From NCBI RefSeq assembly GCF_900103275.1, contig NZ_FNGP01000001.1, positions 248,001-312,000 on the forward strand: 64,000 nt of DNA, given 5' to 3'. How positions within the stretch are numbered: position 1 is the stretch's first letter; every line of letters begins with the position of its first letter. This stretch comes from Tessaracoccus oleiagri. Lineage in GTDB: Bacteria > Actinomycetota > Actinomycetes > Propionibacteriales > Propionibacteriaceae. The position numbers were made by a program, and so were the translations under genes. This document shows, in pieces, positions 16,295-39,333 of the stretch. The notes beneath the pieces are model-generated. The model did no database searches and was not told where the DNA came from. It was given only the letters and a program-made list of their open reading frames with translations.

Positions 16295-17782
16295 ATGCGT
16301 AGAACATTCCTGGCTGCTGCCCTGACCGCCGTCGCGATGGGCACGCTGAGCTTGCCGACGCATGCGGAGGAGGAGCCGACGCCGTCCCCGTCGCCCAGCG
16401 CTTCGCCGTCCGAGGGCGCGTCGGTGGAGAGCCCGGCACCGGAGCCCACGGCGAGCCCGAGCGCTGTCCCCAGCCCCGAGCCGACGGTGGGCCCGTCCCC
16501 CGAGCAGGACGCGAGCCCCACGCCCAGCCTCTTCGAGCCCTCTGCAGAGAGCCCCGCTCCGTCGCCAGAGGCCGACCCCTCTCCCGCGCCGGCGGCGGAA
16601 CCGCAGGAGGCACCGGCGGTGGTGCCCACCGTGGAAGCGGCGGCCGACGCCGTCGCACCCCTGTCCGTGCCCCCGCCCCCCACCGCCCACAGCGCCGGGA
16701 TCAAGCTCGTCGGCCTCGACACGTACACGTGGGGCCGGTTCCAGACCACCGAGCCGCTGACGGTGTGGACGGAGGTCCTCCTCCCCACCGGCTGGTCCAC
16801 GTCGCAGATCCGCACCACCGACGCGACCGGCTATTTCACCATCCCGCTCACCTACGGCTCCACCACCCCCGGCACCTACCGCTGGCGGGTCGCCGGCAGC
16901 TACCCGGGCGGCCAGGTCGTGCGCAGCGGTGAGTTCGAGCTCTGGCGGCTCGCCCGCCCGACCGTCGCCACCGCCGGCAGCAAGGCCGTGGGCCTCACCA
17001 CCTACGCCTGGGGACGGTTCGACGTGCGGGAGCCCGTGACCGTGCGGACCCAGGTGCTCCTCCCGTCGGGGTGGTCCACGTCGCAGATCCGCACCACGGA
17101 CGCCACCGGCTACTACGCCATCCCGCTCACCTACGGCGCGACGACGCCCGGCACCTACCGCTGGCGCGTGACCGCCACCTACGAGCCGGGCGGCAACGTC
17201 AGCACGGCCGAGACGACGCTCACACGCGTGGCCGCGGCGGCCCCGTCGATCACCCGCACGACGACGGCCGAGGTGTCGGGGTACTGGACGAGCAGCTGCC
17301 CCGTCGAGCCCTCCCGACTGAGCACCATCCGCATCAACCACTGGGACTACTCGGGCAACATCCGCCGCGGCGAGATCATCGTCCGCGACGACCTCGCGTC
17401 GCAGGTGTCGGCGGTGCTGCAGCAGTCGTTCGACGCCCGGTTCCCGTTCGCCCAGATGCGGCTGCCGTCGGTGTGGGGCGGCGACGACATCAAGATGATG
17501 GCCGCGAACGACACGTCGGGCTTCAACTGCCGGAAGGTCGTCGGCAACCCGTACGCCTGGTCGCCGCACGCCTACGGCATCGCTGTCGACATCAACCCGC
17601 GCGAGAACCCCTACCGCGACCCGTCCGGCACCTGGTACCCCAACGCGACCTACGCCTACAGCCGGCCCGCCGGGGTGACCGGGATGCTGTACTCGACGAG
17701 CACCCCGGTGCGCGCCTTCCAGGCCCGCGGCTGGCGCTGGGAGAGTGGTTGGGACTGGCACCACTTCCAGAAGGTGTCCTGA
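16295..17782 (+). CDS. secreted repeat protein with C-terminal M15 D,D-peptidase domain
   Basis: Exported wall protein, 495 aa. It has a signal peptide (residues 1-24, ending THA) and then a Pro/Ser/Glu linker (25-128). Two copies of the window's shared repeat follow (129-221, 222-312: TYTWGRF, WTEV, GWSTSQ, IPLTYG, YRWRV). The last 170 residues are an M15 (VanY/D-Ala-D-Ala carboxypeptidase or endolysin-type) zinc peptidase: SPHAYGIAVD supplies His425 and Asp432, and WDWHHF supplies Asp487 and His490. It should trim peptidoglycan stem peptides outside the cell. The ATG at 16295 follows GAGAGGA. Its stop overlaps the downstream lipoprotein start by one base. Confidence 0.88.
   Translation: MRRTFLAAALTAVAMGTLSLPTHAEEEPTPSPSPSASPSEGASVESPAPEPTASPSAVPSPEPTVGPSPEQDASPTPSLFEPSAESPAPSPEADPSPAPAAEPQEAPAVVPTVEAAADAVAPLSVPPPPTAHSAGIKLVGLDTYTWGRFQTTEPLTVWTEVLLPTGWSTSQIRTTDATGYFTIPLTYGSTTPGTYRWRVAGSYPGGQVVRSGEFELWRLARPTVATAGSKAVGLTTYAWGRFDVREPVTVRTQVLLPSGWSTSQIRTTDATGYYAIPLTYGATTPGTYRWRVTATYEPGGNVSTAETTLTRVAAAAPSITRTTTAEVSGYWTSSCPVEPSRLSTIRINHWDYSGNIRRGEIIVRDDLASQVSAVLQQSFDARFPFAQMRLPSVWGGDDIKMMAANDTSGFNCRKVVGNPYAWSPHAYGIAVDINPRENPYRDPSGTWYPNATYAYSRPAGVTGMLYSTSTPVRAFQARGWRWESGWDWHHFQKVS
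16679..17230 (+). repeat. two wall-repeat units in the M15 protein
   Basis: Tandem copies of the 85-95-residue repeat. Fixed positions are (Y/N)xWGxF, WTEV (TQV in copy 2), WSxSQ, GxYxIPLTYG and RWRV. The two copies are also near-identical at the DNA level around the LTYG and YRWRV codons, suggesting recent duplication or conversion. Confidence 0.85.
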
Positions 17783-18504
17783 TGCGACGGGTCGCCGCGG
17801 CCCTCGCCGTGGTGGTGCTCGCCGGGTGCGCGCCCTCCGAGGCGCCCGCCCCATCGCCGTCGCCGACCGCGACCAGCGCCACGCCGGCCGACACGCCGGA
17901 CCCAGCGCCATCGACGGAGCCGACGAGCCCGTCGCCCTCCCCCACCGCGACCGCCGAGCCGGTGCCCGACCCGCAACTGCCCACCGGGCCCGCGGACACG
18001 TCGACGGGCGGCCTCGACGAGTCCGTGCTGCCGGTCCCCGAGGGCTGGGAGCGGGTCGCGAAGGAGGGCTCCGCCGACGAGGGGTTCTTCGGCAATGGCA
18101 CTTGGGTGCACGCCGTCGACCCGGTCCTCCGCGGGGCCGGCACCCTCGCCGTCGGCTGCGACGACGCGCCCCCGGACCTCGCCGGCATGGTGCCCACCGC
18201 GGTCCTCGAGGGCACGCTCGAGCGCGAGGGCGCACCGGGCATCGTGCTCGCCATGGAATTCGCCGACGAGGACGCCGCGGCCCGCTACTTCGAGGAGTAC
18301 AAGCGGCAGGTCGGGCTGTGCGAGGGCACCGTCGTGGAGCAGCTGGGCGAGACGTCGCGGACCTGGTTCGGGCGACGGGACCTGGGGCAGACCTGGTCGG
18401 AGGCCGCGGCGCTGAACGGCGACCGCGCGACATTCATCATCCTCCAGTCGGACATCGACGACCAGCTGCTCGAGGGGATCTCAAACGCACTTCTGGAGGG
18501 CTGA
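17782..18504 (+). CDS. lipoprotein of unknown function
   Basis: 240 aa. The lipobox is VVLAGC, with lipidated Cys at residue 16. A Thr/Pro/Ser-rich spacer runs to about residue 75 and keeps the folded part away from the membrane. The C-terminal 160 residues (WERVAKEG, TLAVGCDD, AMEFADEDAAARYFEEY, ILQSDIDD) form a compact alpha/beta domain I cannot assign. It is translationally coupled to the M15 peptidase gene, so it may act with it at the wall. Confidence 0.75.
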   Translation: MRRVAAALAVVVLAGCAPSEAPAPSPSPTATSATPADTPDPAPSTEPTSPSPSPTATAEPVPDPQLPTGPADTSTGGLDESVLPVPEGWERVAKEGSADEGFFGNGTWVHAVDPVLRGAGTLAVGCDDAPPDLAGMVPTAVLEGTLEREGAPGIVLAMEFADEDAAARYFEEYKRQVGLCEGTVVEQLGETSRTWFGRRDLGQTWSEAAALNGDRATFIILQSDIDDQLLEGISNALLEG

Positions 18505-18521
18505 ACCAGGGCGGCATCCGT

Positions 18522-18527
18522 TAGGGT
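18522..18527 (+). promoter_or_regulatory. -10 box for leaderless argG mRNA
   Basis: TAGGGT lies 6 bp before the GTG start of argG, so transcription would begin at or next to the start codon. No ribosome-binding site is visible there. No good -35 box is seen, as is common for such promoters. Confidence 0.5.
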
Positions 18528-18533
18528 GACCCT

Positions 18534-38074: not shown

Positions 38075-38100
38075 GCACCAACGCTAGCCCGGTGGCCCAG

Positions 38101-38125
38101 CCCCCGCCCGGGATCTGGGCGGGGG
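38101..38125 (-). terminator. GC hairpin after the second repeat-only protein gene
   Basis: CCCCCGCCC (38101-38109) pairs with GGGCGGGGG (38117-38125) across a 7-nt loop, 3 bp past the stop codon on the minus strand. There is no T tract, so it may act as an RNA-stabilising or weak terminator hairpin. Confidence 0.55.
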
Positions 38126-38127
38126 AT

Positions 38128-39333
38128 TCAGCGGACTCGCGTCAGCCGGATCTCGGGGCTCACGACCCTGCCCTCGGCGTACTGCCCGACCACCCGCCAG
38201 CGGGTCGTGCCCGCGGTCGTGGCGCCGTAGGTCAACGGGATCGTGTACTGGCCGGTGCTGCTGCTCACGCGCTCCTGCGACTTCGACCACCGCTGGCCGG
38301 TCCAGACCTCGGTCCAGACCTTGATCGCCTTGTAGTCGGCGCTCACGTCGAAGCCTCCCGAGGCATAGACGGGCTGCCCCACCTTCGCGGTGGGCACCGC
38401 GTTGATCGTGGGCCTGGACACGCGGCGGAAGAAGAACGGCTCGGTGCGGGCGATGTCGCCGTCGCCGATGTCGCCGGCGACGCGGTACCAGTAGAAGTCC
38501 GGCTTGCTCGCGCCGTAGGTCAACGGGAGCACGTAGTTGCCGGAGGAGCCGGTGAGGCCCTGCTGGGACTTCGAGAAACCCGCACCGGTCCACACCTCCG
38601 TCCACACGGGCGCCGGCCACCTGACGTCGAAGTGGCCCCACACATTGGCCGTCTCGCCGACGATCTTCACGCCCGCGTGACTCGCGGCCGGCCGCGCGAC
38701 CCGCTCGATGGAACTCGCCTCGGTGTACACCACCGCGCCGTTGTAGTAGCGGGCCCCGACACGGAAGACGTACTCGCCCGGGGTGTTGGCGCCGTAGGTC
38801 AGCGGCAGCACGTAGGACCCGGTGCCGCTGGTGGTGGACTCCTGGGACTTGGACCAGCGGCCGTCGACGAGGAACTCGGTCCACACCGGCTCGTTGGTGG
38901 CGTGGCTGCCGTCGAACCTGCCCCACGTGTTGGTGGCTTCCCCGATGAGCTTCCAGCCCGCGCTGTACACGGTCGGTTCCTTCAGGATGGCGAGGGGCAC
39001 CCAGCCGGACACGACGTCGTCGACGACGGCGCGGACCCGGTACTCGCCCGCGGACTCGATGCCGCTCCAGAACTCGTAGGTGCCGTCGGGCGTGCTCCCG
39101 ATGAGCATGATCCCGAGCCCGTCGGGCCCCTCGCTCTCGATCCGCAGCCGGCCGGAGCCGCAGCGCTCCAGCGTGACGACGACGTCCGTCTCGTCGACCT
39201 CGAAGACCACTGGCGCGGCCGGCTGGAGGTTGACCCGGCAGAGGGAAGGGGCGGCGCTGGCCGGCGCCGTCACCGCTCCGGCGGCGAACAGTGCGACTGC
39301 GGCGATCGTCGCCACCGAACGGGGGAATCCCAT
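38128..39333 (-). CDS. secreted repeat-only wall protein (paralogue 2)
   Basis: 401 aa. The signal peptide is residues 1-28 (ends ASA). The N-terminal domain (29-118) is related to that of the protein at 34825: LCRV near the start, RCGSGRL and a final GWVPL. Three repeats follow (119-213, 214-307, 308-401), more diverged than elsewhere (TNTWGRF, ANVWGHF, VYASGGF; WTEF/WTEV; WSKSQ/FSKSQ; LPLTYG/IPLTYG). No enzymatic domain. The start ATG follows CAGGAGA. The 271-bp upstream region holds its promoter and a small CCCGCC/GGCGGG inverted repeat. Confidence 0.82.
   Translation of the reverse strand: MGFPRSVATIAAVALFAAGAVTAPASAAPSLCRVNLQPAAPVVFEVDETDVVVTLERCGSGRLRIESEGPDGLGIMLIGSTPDGTYEFWSGIESAGEYRVRAVVDDVVSGWVPLAILKEPTVYSAGWKLIGEATNTWGRFDGSHATNEPVWTEFLVDGRWSKSQESTTSGTGSYVLPLTYGANTPGEYVFRVGARYYNGAVVYTEASSIERVARPAASHAGVKIVGETANVWGHFDVRWPAPVWTEVWTGAGFSKSQQGLTGSSGNYVLPLTYGASKPDFYWYRVAGDIGDGDIARTEPFFFRRVSRPTINAVPTAKVGQPVYASGGFDVSADYKAIKVWTEVWTGQRWSKSQERVSSSTGQYTIPLTYGATTAGTTRWRVVGQYAEGRVVSPEIRLTRVR
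38131..38979 (-). repeat. three wall-repeat units in paralogue 2
   Basis: Tandem units of about 94 residues. They keep LTYG, WTE(V/F) and (W/F)SKSQ but have lost some aromatic positions, so this is the most diverged set in the window. Confidence 0.8.

Follow-up and report, generated by a model that had tools for sequence, protein, structure and literature searches.

A predicted Ig-like repeat on ten secreted proteins of Tessaracoccus oleiagri, a probable wall-docking module at a pseudaminic acid locus

Ten secreted proteins of Tessaracoccus oleiagri share a repeat of about 92 residues that has no family name and is confidently predicted to fold as an Ig-like beta-sandwich. At a probability of roughly 60%, we propose that this module tethers secreted proteins non-covalently to the wall of the cell that makes them. 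The repeat was noticed in a window of 64,000 nucleotides (the whole stretch of DNA analysed), where five genes, A to E, surround a block of pseudaminic acid (Pse) genes. An earlier note on this DNA had counted 13 clear copies there, two each in A and B and three each in C, D and E. The profile HMM that it suggested, once built from these copies, recovered every one of them at its place with 116-148 bits; since the same 13 copies built the model, the scores attest to coherence and are not an independent test. The alignment has 15 invariant columns and a mean column identity of 59%, and the repeat is Ser/Thr-rich with a conserved WSxSQ motif. The more distant relatives mentioned in the note were also found: the first copy in B is diverged, and BLASTP pairs the N-terminal domain of D, all-beta by prediction with a strand order similar to that of the repeat, with that of E (1e-6) and with the diverged B copy (2e-5). 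The features are as follows.

16295..17782, + strand: A, secreted, Pro-rich stretch, two repeats and C-terminal Peptidase_M15_4 (ORF, Pfam, HMM)
16679..16957, + strand: A repeat 1 (aa 129-221), 140.3 bits
16958..17236, + strand: A repeat 2 (aa 222-314), 131.0 bits
20073..21548, + strand: B, secreted L,D-transpeptidase (YkuD), one diverged and two clear repeats (ORF, Pfam, HMM)
20355..20618, + strand: B diverged repeat (aa 95-182), 31.5 bits
20619..20897, + strand: B repeat 2 (aa 183-275), 143.2 bits
20898..21176, + strand: B repeat 3 (aa 276-368), 138.5 bits
21721..22950, + strand: C, secreted, three repeats, aggregation-promoting-factor/SLT-like C-terminus (ORF, Pfam, NCBIfam, HMM)
21820..22101, + strand: C repeat 1, 126.1 bits
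22102..22380, + strand: C repeat 2, 122.2 bits
22384..22665, + strand: C repeat 3, 130.3 bits
34825..36030, - strand: D, secreted, diverged N-terminal domain and three repeats, no enzyme (ORF, HMM, BLASTP, model)
35659..35934, - strand: D N-terminal domain, related to that of E and to the B diverged copy (BLASTP, structure prediction)
35380..35658, - strand: D repeat 1, 147.6 bits
35101..35379, - strand: D repeat 2, 134.8 bits
34828..35100, - strand: D repeat 3, 122.2 bits
38128..39417 (longest frame), - strand: E, secreted, diverged N-terminal domain and three repeats, no enzyme (ORF, HMM, BLASTP)
38692..38976, - strand: E repeat 1, 128.6 bits
38413..38691, - strand: E repeat 2, 129.4 bits
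38131..38412, - strand: E repeat 3, 116.2 bits

The note's ends for D (36021) and E (39333) are alternative in-frame starts within the longest ORFs, which begin at 36030 and 39417; for E, Met 29 of the long frame (39333) looks the better start. The note had placed all five genes around the pse genes, which is right for the locus and too narrow for the genome. With the 13-copy HMM, as with a 31-row model, the own genome (G000) holds 31 copies in ten proteins, and 17 of these lie in five proteins outside A-E, at four other genomic places away from the pse locus. The number in tandem varies from two to five per protein.

The payloads differ from carrier to carrier. Peptidase_M15_4 in A (44.1 bits, cut-off 25) and YkuD in B (43.2 bits, cut-off 23.4) exceed their Pfam cut-offs, and C is assigned through an aggregation-promoting-factor C-terminal-like domain (76.2 bits, cut-off 40), SLT itself falling slightly below threshold (20.3 against 21.3); the fusions to an M15 peptidase, an L,D-transpeptidase, an SLT-like domain or no enzyme described in the note were thus confirmed. 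The five carriers outside A-E bear a glucosaminidase, CAP, polysaccharide deacetylase, Ltp repeats or a domain without assignment, and two of the ten proteins, D and E, have no payload domain. Five of the ten, judged from their domains, are probably enzymes that work on the wall of their own cell. In relatives, the repeat is also joined to M14 carboxypeptidase, Amidase_2, transglycosylase-like and Excalibur domains. Phage lysins were considered as carriers and rejected, as 36 pattern matches in viral contigs yielded no confirmed case; phage and plasmid collections, queried with protein D only, gave no relatives of the repeat.

The note could not match the repeat to a named domain, and this holds for Pfam-A (ten proteins), NCBIfam (A-E) and, apart from weak matches, PDB sequences. 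No single copy passes any Pfam-A cut-off; weak profile matches in A-E include FlgD_ig (20.8 vs 27), Y_Y_Y (14.8 vs 26.6) and CarboxypepD_reg (19 vs 32.3). Y_Y_Y in protein H (29.6 vs 26.6) and Transthyretin in protein G exceed their cut-offs as whole-protein sums only, with no individual stretch significant. FlgD_ig, Y_Y_Y, CarboxypepD_reg and Big_6, Ig-like repeats of bacterial surface proteins, have the same kind of fold and match weakly by profile, but no copy qualifies as such a domain. The NCBIfam scan, run on A-E, on F, on one relative and on eight genes of the pse block, gave no named model covering the repeat of A-E. TIGR03769 (P_ac_wall_RPT), a repeat model with a short name that hints at the wall, matched a 28-residue stretch of A repeat 2 at 13.1 bits against 30.9 (E 0.11) and was not listed for B-E; among the scanned proteins A-E, the repeat is not a member of this family. 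CWB2 (PF04122) has no match in the ten proteins or, at E<=1e-5, in the own genome, and no choline-binding repeat (CW_binding_1) turned up in the Pfam scans of the ten. One of the weak PDB matches, by profile, is to the biofilm-associated protein 7dm0 (E 0.0032). Among the matches listed in literature searches, none concerned this repeat.

Structure prediction, also proposed in the note, gave an all-beta AlphaFold2 model of nine strands for a single repeat (pLDDT 97.3), which superposes on the FnIII-like module 3pdg with VIA Z 10.8 and 2.0 A over 84 residues. We confidently predict an Ig/FnIII-type beta-sandwich, a two-sheet Greek key of 7-9 strands and about 90 residues. Foldseek on the PDB returned many Ig-like matches (best E 0.0026, none <=0.001), from which no function was read; a fold in common with other proteins indicates none. 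The model of whole D has a pTM of 0.58.

Between C and D lie ten genes on both strands (23012..34773; NCBIfam, Pfam), and a further group lies beyond E.

23012-24379, - strand: pseF-like (Pfam CTP_transf_3; in NCBIfam only KDO cytidylyltransferase models, under cut-off)
24389-25411, - strand: pseG-like (PseG 121 vs cut-off 154)
25420-26475, + strand: pseB (PseB 479 vs cut-off 408)
26483-27607, + strand: pseC-like (PseC 416.5 vs cut-off 423.5)
27614-29683, - strand: GT2 gene
29691-30770, - strand: GT2 gene
30883-31701, + strand: unnamed gene
31694-33154, + strand: unnamed gene
33227-34285, - strand: pseI (PseI 457 vs cut-off 340)
34282-34773, - strand: pseH-like (PseH 78.9 vs cut-off 93.1)
40286..45704, + strand: rest of the glycopolymer cassette, with carrier protein, AMP-ligase, SDR, GT2 and ABC-2 permease genes (Pfam)

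The order of the 40286..45704 genes is kept in two congeners, G038 and G021. Flagellin is the usual target of Pse. Flagellin glycosylation was rejected as the use of Pse here, the own genome having no Flagellin_N match at E<=0.001; this, together with the ABC-2 permease in the cassette, fits a wall polymer instead.

The link between repeat and pse block is real inside the genus, incomplete, and not a rule across the family. PseI exceeds its cut-off in three of 39 genus genomes, and these are the three richest in copies (G000 with 31, G038 with 19 and G021 with 12; every candidate was scored). Another 18 of the 21 genus genomes with any copy have no PseI over cut-off, weak copies being common there. 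In the family, where up to 26 candidates per genome were scored (up to 13 in another survey) and copy numbers are therefore lower bounds, 11 of 15 pseI-positive genomes show no repeat at E<=1e-8, and four of these 11, belonging to genus g26, have a similar cassette. Presence of any repeat and of PseI (20 and 15 genomes) coincides in four, a borderline association (p 0.05). Strong copies without a PseI match occur in G082 (at least nine copies, best 123 bits) and G024 (three copies, best 125.5 bits), both fragmented assemblies, 90% and 85% complete respectively. CWB2 is present in eight of the 39 genus genomes and in none of the three with pseI, an absence that chance alone would produce in about half of cases.

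Within one clade, repeat and pse block are present or absent together. An rpoB tree places G023 inside the group of G000, G038 and G021 (support 100/99), and G023 has neither a PseI nor a repeat match. Its 25 rows comprise 24 genomes of the genus, out of 39, plus G121; of 30 genomes sampled (28 of the genus, G082 and G121), 26 matched and G024, G033, G034 and G082 did not, while G020 was left out for a split frame and G002, also split, entered by its longer piece. At the site beside argG, where genes were picked by base composition as in the other gene lists for site and cassette comparisons, the whole block is absent from G023: a distance of about 1.1 kb separates its transpeptidase gene from a gene whose 85% identical counterpart in G038 stands beyond the block, about 22 kb further along. 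Replacement by another cassette was considered and rejected, as the sugar-dehydrogenase-like gene that comes next in G023 shares 85% identity with one that G038 and G021 have beyond the block. A single unmatched gene (L134:8390-9433) stands in the block's place, and farther on G023 genes differ more; the block is therefore absent rather than replaced. The joint absence counts as one evolutionary event.

Modules are exchanged on two enzymes. The G023 transpeptidase carries FG-GAP in place of the repeat, and its catalytic domain groups with those of G000, G038 and G021 (92/91, under the 95 mark), with that of G018 falling inside the same group. At its end the glucosaminidase has three full repeats in G000, CWB2 in G029 and FG-GAP in G027; G029 and G027 are sisters in a five-row catalytic-domain tree (100/99). 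The M15 enzyme of G023 belongs to another subgroup in its tree, so this gene was not simply re-fitted. FG-GAP is found on M15, L,D-transpeptidase, deacetylase and glucosaminidase proteins of relatives, where orthology with the own-genome enzymes is tree-backed for the transpeptidase and glucosaminidase only. We know of no wall binding by FG-GAP in these enzymes. The interpretation in the note is partly supported: its modular targeting system is favoured, beyond what the window alone could show, by a module on ten proteins and by other modules in its place in congeners, one of them the recognised wall-polymer anchor CWB2; the tie to Pse holds within the genus and fails as a rule.

The closest known systems include two wall-anchoring modules. 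The pneumococcal choline-binding module, a tandem repeat, anchors hydrolases and adhesins non-covalently to wall choline, according to one account (PMC4929436). Here too one tandem module occurs on varied secreted proteins, but it is a predicted Ig-like sandwich of about 92 residues. CWB2, described as anchoring proteins of Clostridioides difficile to the wall polymer PSII (PMC8881574), takes the same C-terminal place in the G029 glucosaminidase, but is unrelated by profile to the repeat, which is all-beta by prediction. FG-GAP is likewise carried by corresponding kinds of wall enzyme and is a different Pfam family.

The repeat is probably a shared, non-covalent wall-docking module; we infer both the wall binding and its non-covalent nature. 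Two to five tandem copies would provide avidity, the joined domain would be the payload, and D and E would be wall-bound surface proteins. The ligand may be a glycopolymer made by the neighbouring genes; that it contains Pse is a tentative suggestion. Docking on peptidoglycan or another widely shared wall polymer, with the pse neighbourhood merely marking a locus where wall genes gather, is somewhat doubtful. In its favour are the weaker repeat relatives on the same kinds of enzyme in pseI-free congeners, the transpeptidase or M15 genes beside or close to argG in several genomes that lack a pse block, and the 11 family genomes with pseI and no repeat; against it are the joint absence in G023 and the fact that the genus's three pseI genomes have the most copies.

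Ig-like folds are also typical of inert spacers, and the predicted fold and variable copy number would suit stalks that set enzyme reach, with retention coming from elsewhere. This is unlikely: D and E consist almost solely of repeats and a pure spacer would have nothing to carry, CWB2 occupies the same position in G029, and the invariance of R70 and R90 in all 68 copies compared (G000, G038, G021 and G082; comparison of 72 copies of at least 75 residues in six genomes) exceeds a spacer's need, though it may be structural. In the same comparison the nearest copy outside the own protein lies in the same genome for 26 of 31 copies of G000, yet for 5 of 18 of G038 and 0 of 11 of G021; concerted evolution was accordingly not used as evidence. 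It is improbable that the repeats are acceptors decorated with Pse by glycosyltransferases of the locus. The Ser/Thr-rich sequence with WSxSQ, the two GT2 genes in the block and the lack of a flagellin match would agree with it, and co-inheritance would follow equally; however, the permease and carrier/ligase genes point to an exported polymer, the cassettes without repeats in other genera would need a different acceptor, and S42 is kept in seven of eight copies in G082, a genome with no PseI match. Bacterial adhesins often contain Ig-like repeats, and with the weak 7dm0 match this might suggest binding to a host or environmental surface, the least probable reading given that half of the payloads are enzymes for the cell's own wall.

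Returning to wall docking, it is conceivable, if somewhat speculative, that wall polymer and docking module change together, so that on gain or loss of a cassette the modules on wall enzymes are exchanged and the enzymes keep reading their own wall. The clade would then possibly display a Pse-type cassette with the repeat and, in G023 without the cassette, FG-GAP on the transpeptidase and on the M15 enzyme at the same site. If so, the repeat would be the first Ig-like module known to us as a receptor for a wall polymer that contains Pse; the matches listed in the literature searches showed no other.

For many actinobacteria, little is known about how wall enzymes are kept in position. With one unnamed module in common, ten proteins that otherwise seem unrelated gain functions that can be tested. 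If module and polymer do switch together, orthologous enzymes with exchanged modules would be ready tools for probing how wall glycopolymers vary, and the modules could act as species-specific wall-binding tags.

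A repeat of some 92 residues occurs in thirteen clear copies in five secreted proteins, A to E, surrounding the pse (pseudaminic acid, Pse) genes of Tessaracoccus oleiagri, as the earlier note had described. Each clear copy scores 116-148 bits in an HMM search, with a mean column identity of 59% and 15 invariant columns across the set. The note's claim of diverged copies or related N-terminal domains in three of the proteins also held: B contains an additional diverged copy (31.5 bits), D and E have N-terminal domains that resemble one another (BLASTP 1e-6), and that of D also matches the diverged copy of B (2e-5) and is predicted to be all-beta with a strand order similar to that of the repeat. 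A signal-like stretch is visible by eye at the start of each of A to E. Five proteins is correct for this locus and an underestimate for the genome (G000), where the repeat occurs in 31 copies in ten proteins and is not confined to the window. The ten carriers, with those at other loci (L) in each locus's own coordinates and identified by ORF and domain scan, are as follows.

Proteins carrying the repeat in T. oleiagri
16295-17782 (+), A, with Peptidase_M15_4 as payload
20073-21548 (+), B, with YkuD as payload
21721-22950 (+), C, with an aggregation-promoting-factor/SLT-like domain as payload
34825-36030 (-), D, no payload domain
38128-39417 (-), E, no payload domain
L018:4777-6777, glucosaminidase with three full and two diverged copies
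L019:4925-6295, CAP protein with the repeat
L019:6378-7943, polysaccharide deacetylase with the repeat
L020:6304-7674, Ltp-repeat protein with the repeat
L017:3539-5527, repeat protein with an N-terminal domain without assignment, beside transporter-like genes (by eye)

In relatives the repeat is fused to further kinds of domain. Ten of their repeat proteins were scanned: M14, Amidase_2, transglycosylase-like, Excalibur, YkuD and deacetylase domains were found once each, another protein contained LTD and endonuclease/phosphatase domains, two had no match and one had nothing above cut-off.

A single-copy model built from the 13-row alignment (mean pLDDT 97.3) has nine strands, and structurally it comes closest to domains of the FnIII and Ig types (VIA Z 10.8 to 3pdg; best Foldseek E 0.0026). 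No single copy passed the Pfam cut-off in the ten proteins or the NCBIfam cut-off in A to E. The closest NCBIfam name on a repeat, TIGR03769 (P_ac_wall_RPT), reached 13.1 bits against a cut-off of 30.9; whole-protein Pfam sums exceeded the cut-off without a significant stretch for Transthyretin on the glucosaminidase and Y_Y_Y on the CAP protein. The best PDB match by sequence profile was weak (7dm0, E 0.0032). Thus, the repeat family is unnamed in Pfam and NCBIfam, in agreement with the original observation, and its fold is ordinary.

Within the genus, the repeat was matched in 21 of 39 genomes (E<=0.001), with 31 copies in G000, 19 in G038, 12 in G021 and at most 8 in the others; matches of at least 90 bits occur in these three, G024 and G011. 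Those of G011, which lacks PseI, are full-strength copies fragmented over several reading frames (L126:5909-6764), a decaying gene and perhaps what is left of a lost system. The repeat was found in 20 of 198 family genomes (5 of 29 genera, E<=1e-8) and in 15 of 391 sampled genomes of the order (3 of 40 genera, E<=1e-12), every one of the same family. With the search settings applied, viral contigs, phages and plasmids yielded no relatives.

PseI exceeds the cut-off in 3 of the 39 genus genomes, exactly the three richest in copies, and in each of these repeat genes directly adjoin pse genes; in G021 the pse genes are split over two contigs, and on each of these they have repeat genes as neighbours. 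The rpoB tree is (G000,(G023,(G038,G021))), with support of 100/99, 100/99 and 97/95. (rpoB is divided over two reading frames in G020, L165, and G002, L160, probably through sequencing errors.) G023, nested in this clade and 99% complete, has neither a PseI nor a repeat match, a joint absence that counts as one event. Its argG, 90-92% identical to that of the other three, is followed by an M15 protein and an L,D-transpeptidase, both with FG-GAP modules; about 1.1 kb further lies a gene 85% identical to one located about 22 kb away in G038, past the whole pse block. The transpeptidase catalytic domain clusters with those of G000, G038 and G021, that of G018 also falling within (92/91, ten rows, midpoint root), while the M15 protein belongs to a different subgroup with G018 (98/95). 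Thus, the transpeptidase looks re-fitted and the M15 gene replaced.

Two adjacent genes of the pse block (30883-31701 and 31694-33154) have no Pfam or NCBIfam match. Homologues of both occur in the pse cassettes of G038 and G167-G170, and of the first also in G124 and G121; they are probably unnamed parts of the polymer pathway. A trio of carrier protein, AMP-ligase and SDR (40286-42511), an unusual addition for a pse cassette, accompanies the pse genes in G038, G021, G167, G124 and G121, and perhaps serves acyl modification.

Modules have also been exchanged on the glucosaminidase. After two diverged copies, its tail continues with three full copies in G000, CWB2 in G029, FG-GAP in G027 and, by eye, a different repeat in G011. 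The catalytic-domain tree makes G029 and G027 sisters (100/99, five rows), and hence the exchange of the tail a recent one. CWB2 occurs in 8 of 39 genus genomes and in none of the three with pseI, a result expected by chance about half the time. CWB2 motifs attach Clostridioides difficile surface proteins through the polymer PSII (PMC8881574), and the best functional parallel to the repeat is the pneumococcal choline-binding module (PMC4929436). Other repeats occupy congeners' enzymes. An Ig-like repeat with PPG..VWW and PIGPWxxTYxWR patterns, matching the present one weakly or not at all, is found on M15 and YkuD enzymes (L120:14064-16124, L128:1-1875, L129:527-2305), and a cysteine-bearing TPGTHxxNGRxWRTxCE-type repeat on M15 and glucosaminidase enzymes (L126:8154-10145, L056:2173-3930, L042:316-2283), whose region matched no Pfam family in the pair of proteins that was scanned (L126 and L056).

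The link with pse genes stands for a single clade and does not hold generally. Of 15 PseI-positive genomes among the 198 of the family, 4 have the repeat and 11 lack it at E<=1e-8, which counts against a Pse ligand; four of the 11 (genus g26) possess a comparable cassette that includes homologues of both unnamed genes. Also among the 11, G167 and G124 have the carrier, ligase and SDR genes, which were seen in part in G168 and G169. Conversely, G082 and G024 have strong copies and no PseI match, an absence made uncertain by fragmented, incomplete assemblies; PseC had no match in G082 and only a distant one (34% identity) in G024, and chance gaps in both are unlikely to account for the missing genes. 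In G121, PseI is present, the copies are weaker (best 83 bits) and none was seen in the 20 kb surrounding pseI. Across the family, any repeat and PseI coincide in 4 genomes against 1.5 expected (p 0.05, borderline); PseI is present in 4 of 5 genomes with at least 9 copies (p 0.0001) and 3 of 6 with copies of at least 90 bits (p 0.006), values that are descriptive, both thresholds having been set after the data were known and the genomes being related. Two main rivals are that the repeat binds peptidoglycan or some widely shared polymer, and that it acts as a spacer. A third main rival, that the repeat is an acceptor of Pse, would explain the co-inheritance as well, but the ABC-2 permease in the cassette speaks for an exported polymer.

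The earlier note proposed modular targeting, and the exchange on glucosaminidase and transpeptidase tails lends this strong circumstantial support. Most likely, the tandem Ig-like repeats would hold secreted proteins to the wall of their own cell without a covalent bond, the fused domain being the payload. The analysis establishes the family, its predicted fold, the fusions, the module exchange and one joint loss; binding, ligand and avidity are what we infer. In Streptomyces coelicolor the major wall glycopolymer is teichulosonic acid (PMC7831098), and lectins recognise hypervariable surface glycoconjugates in Streptomyces (PMC13274773). The repeat represents a new family of probable wall-docking module.
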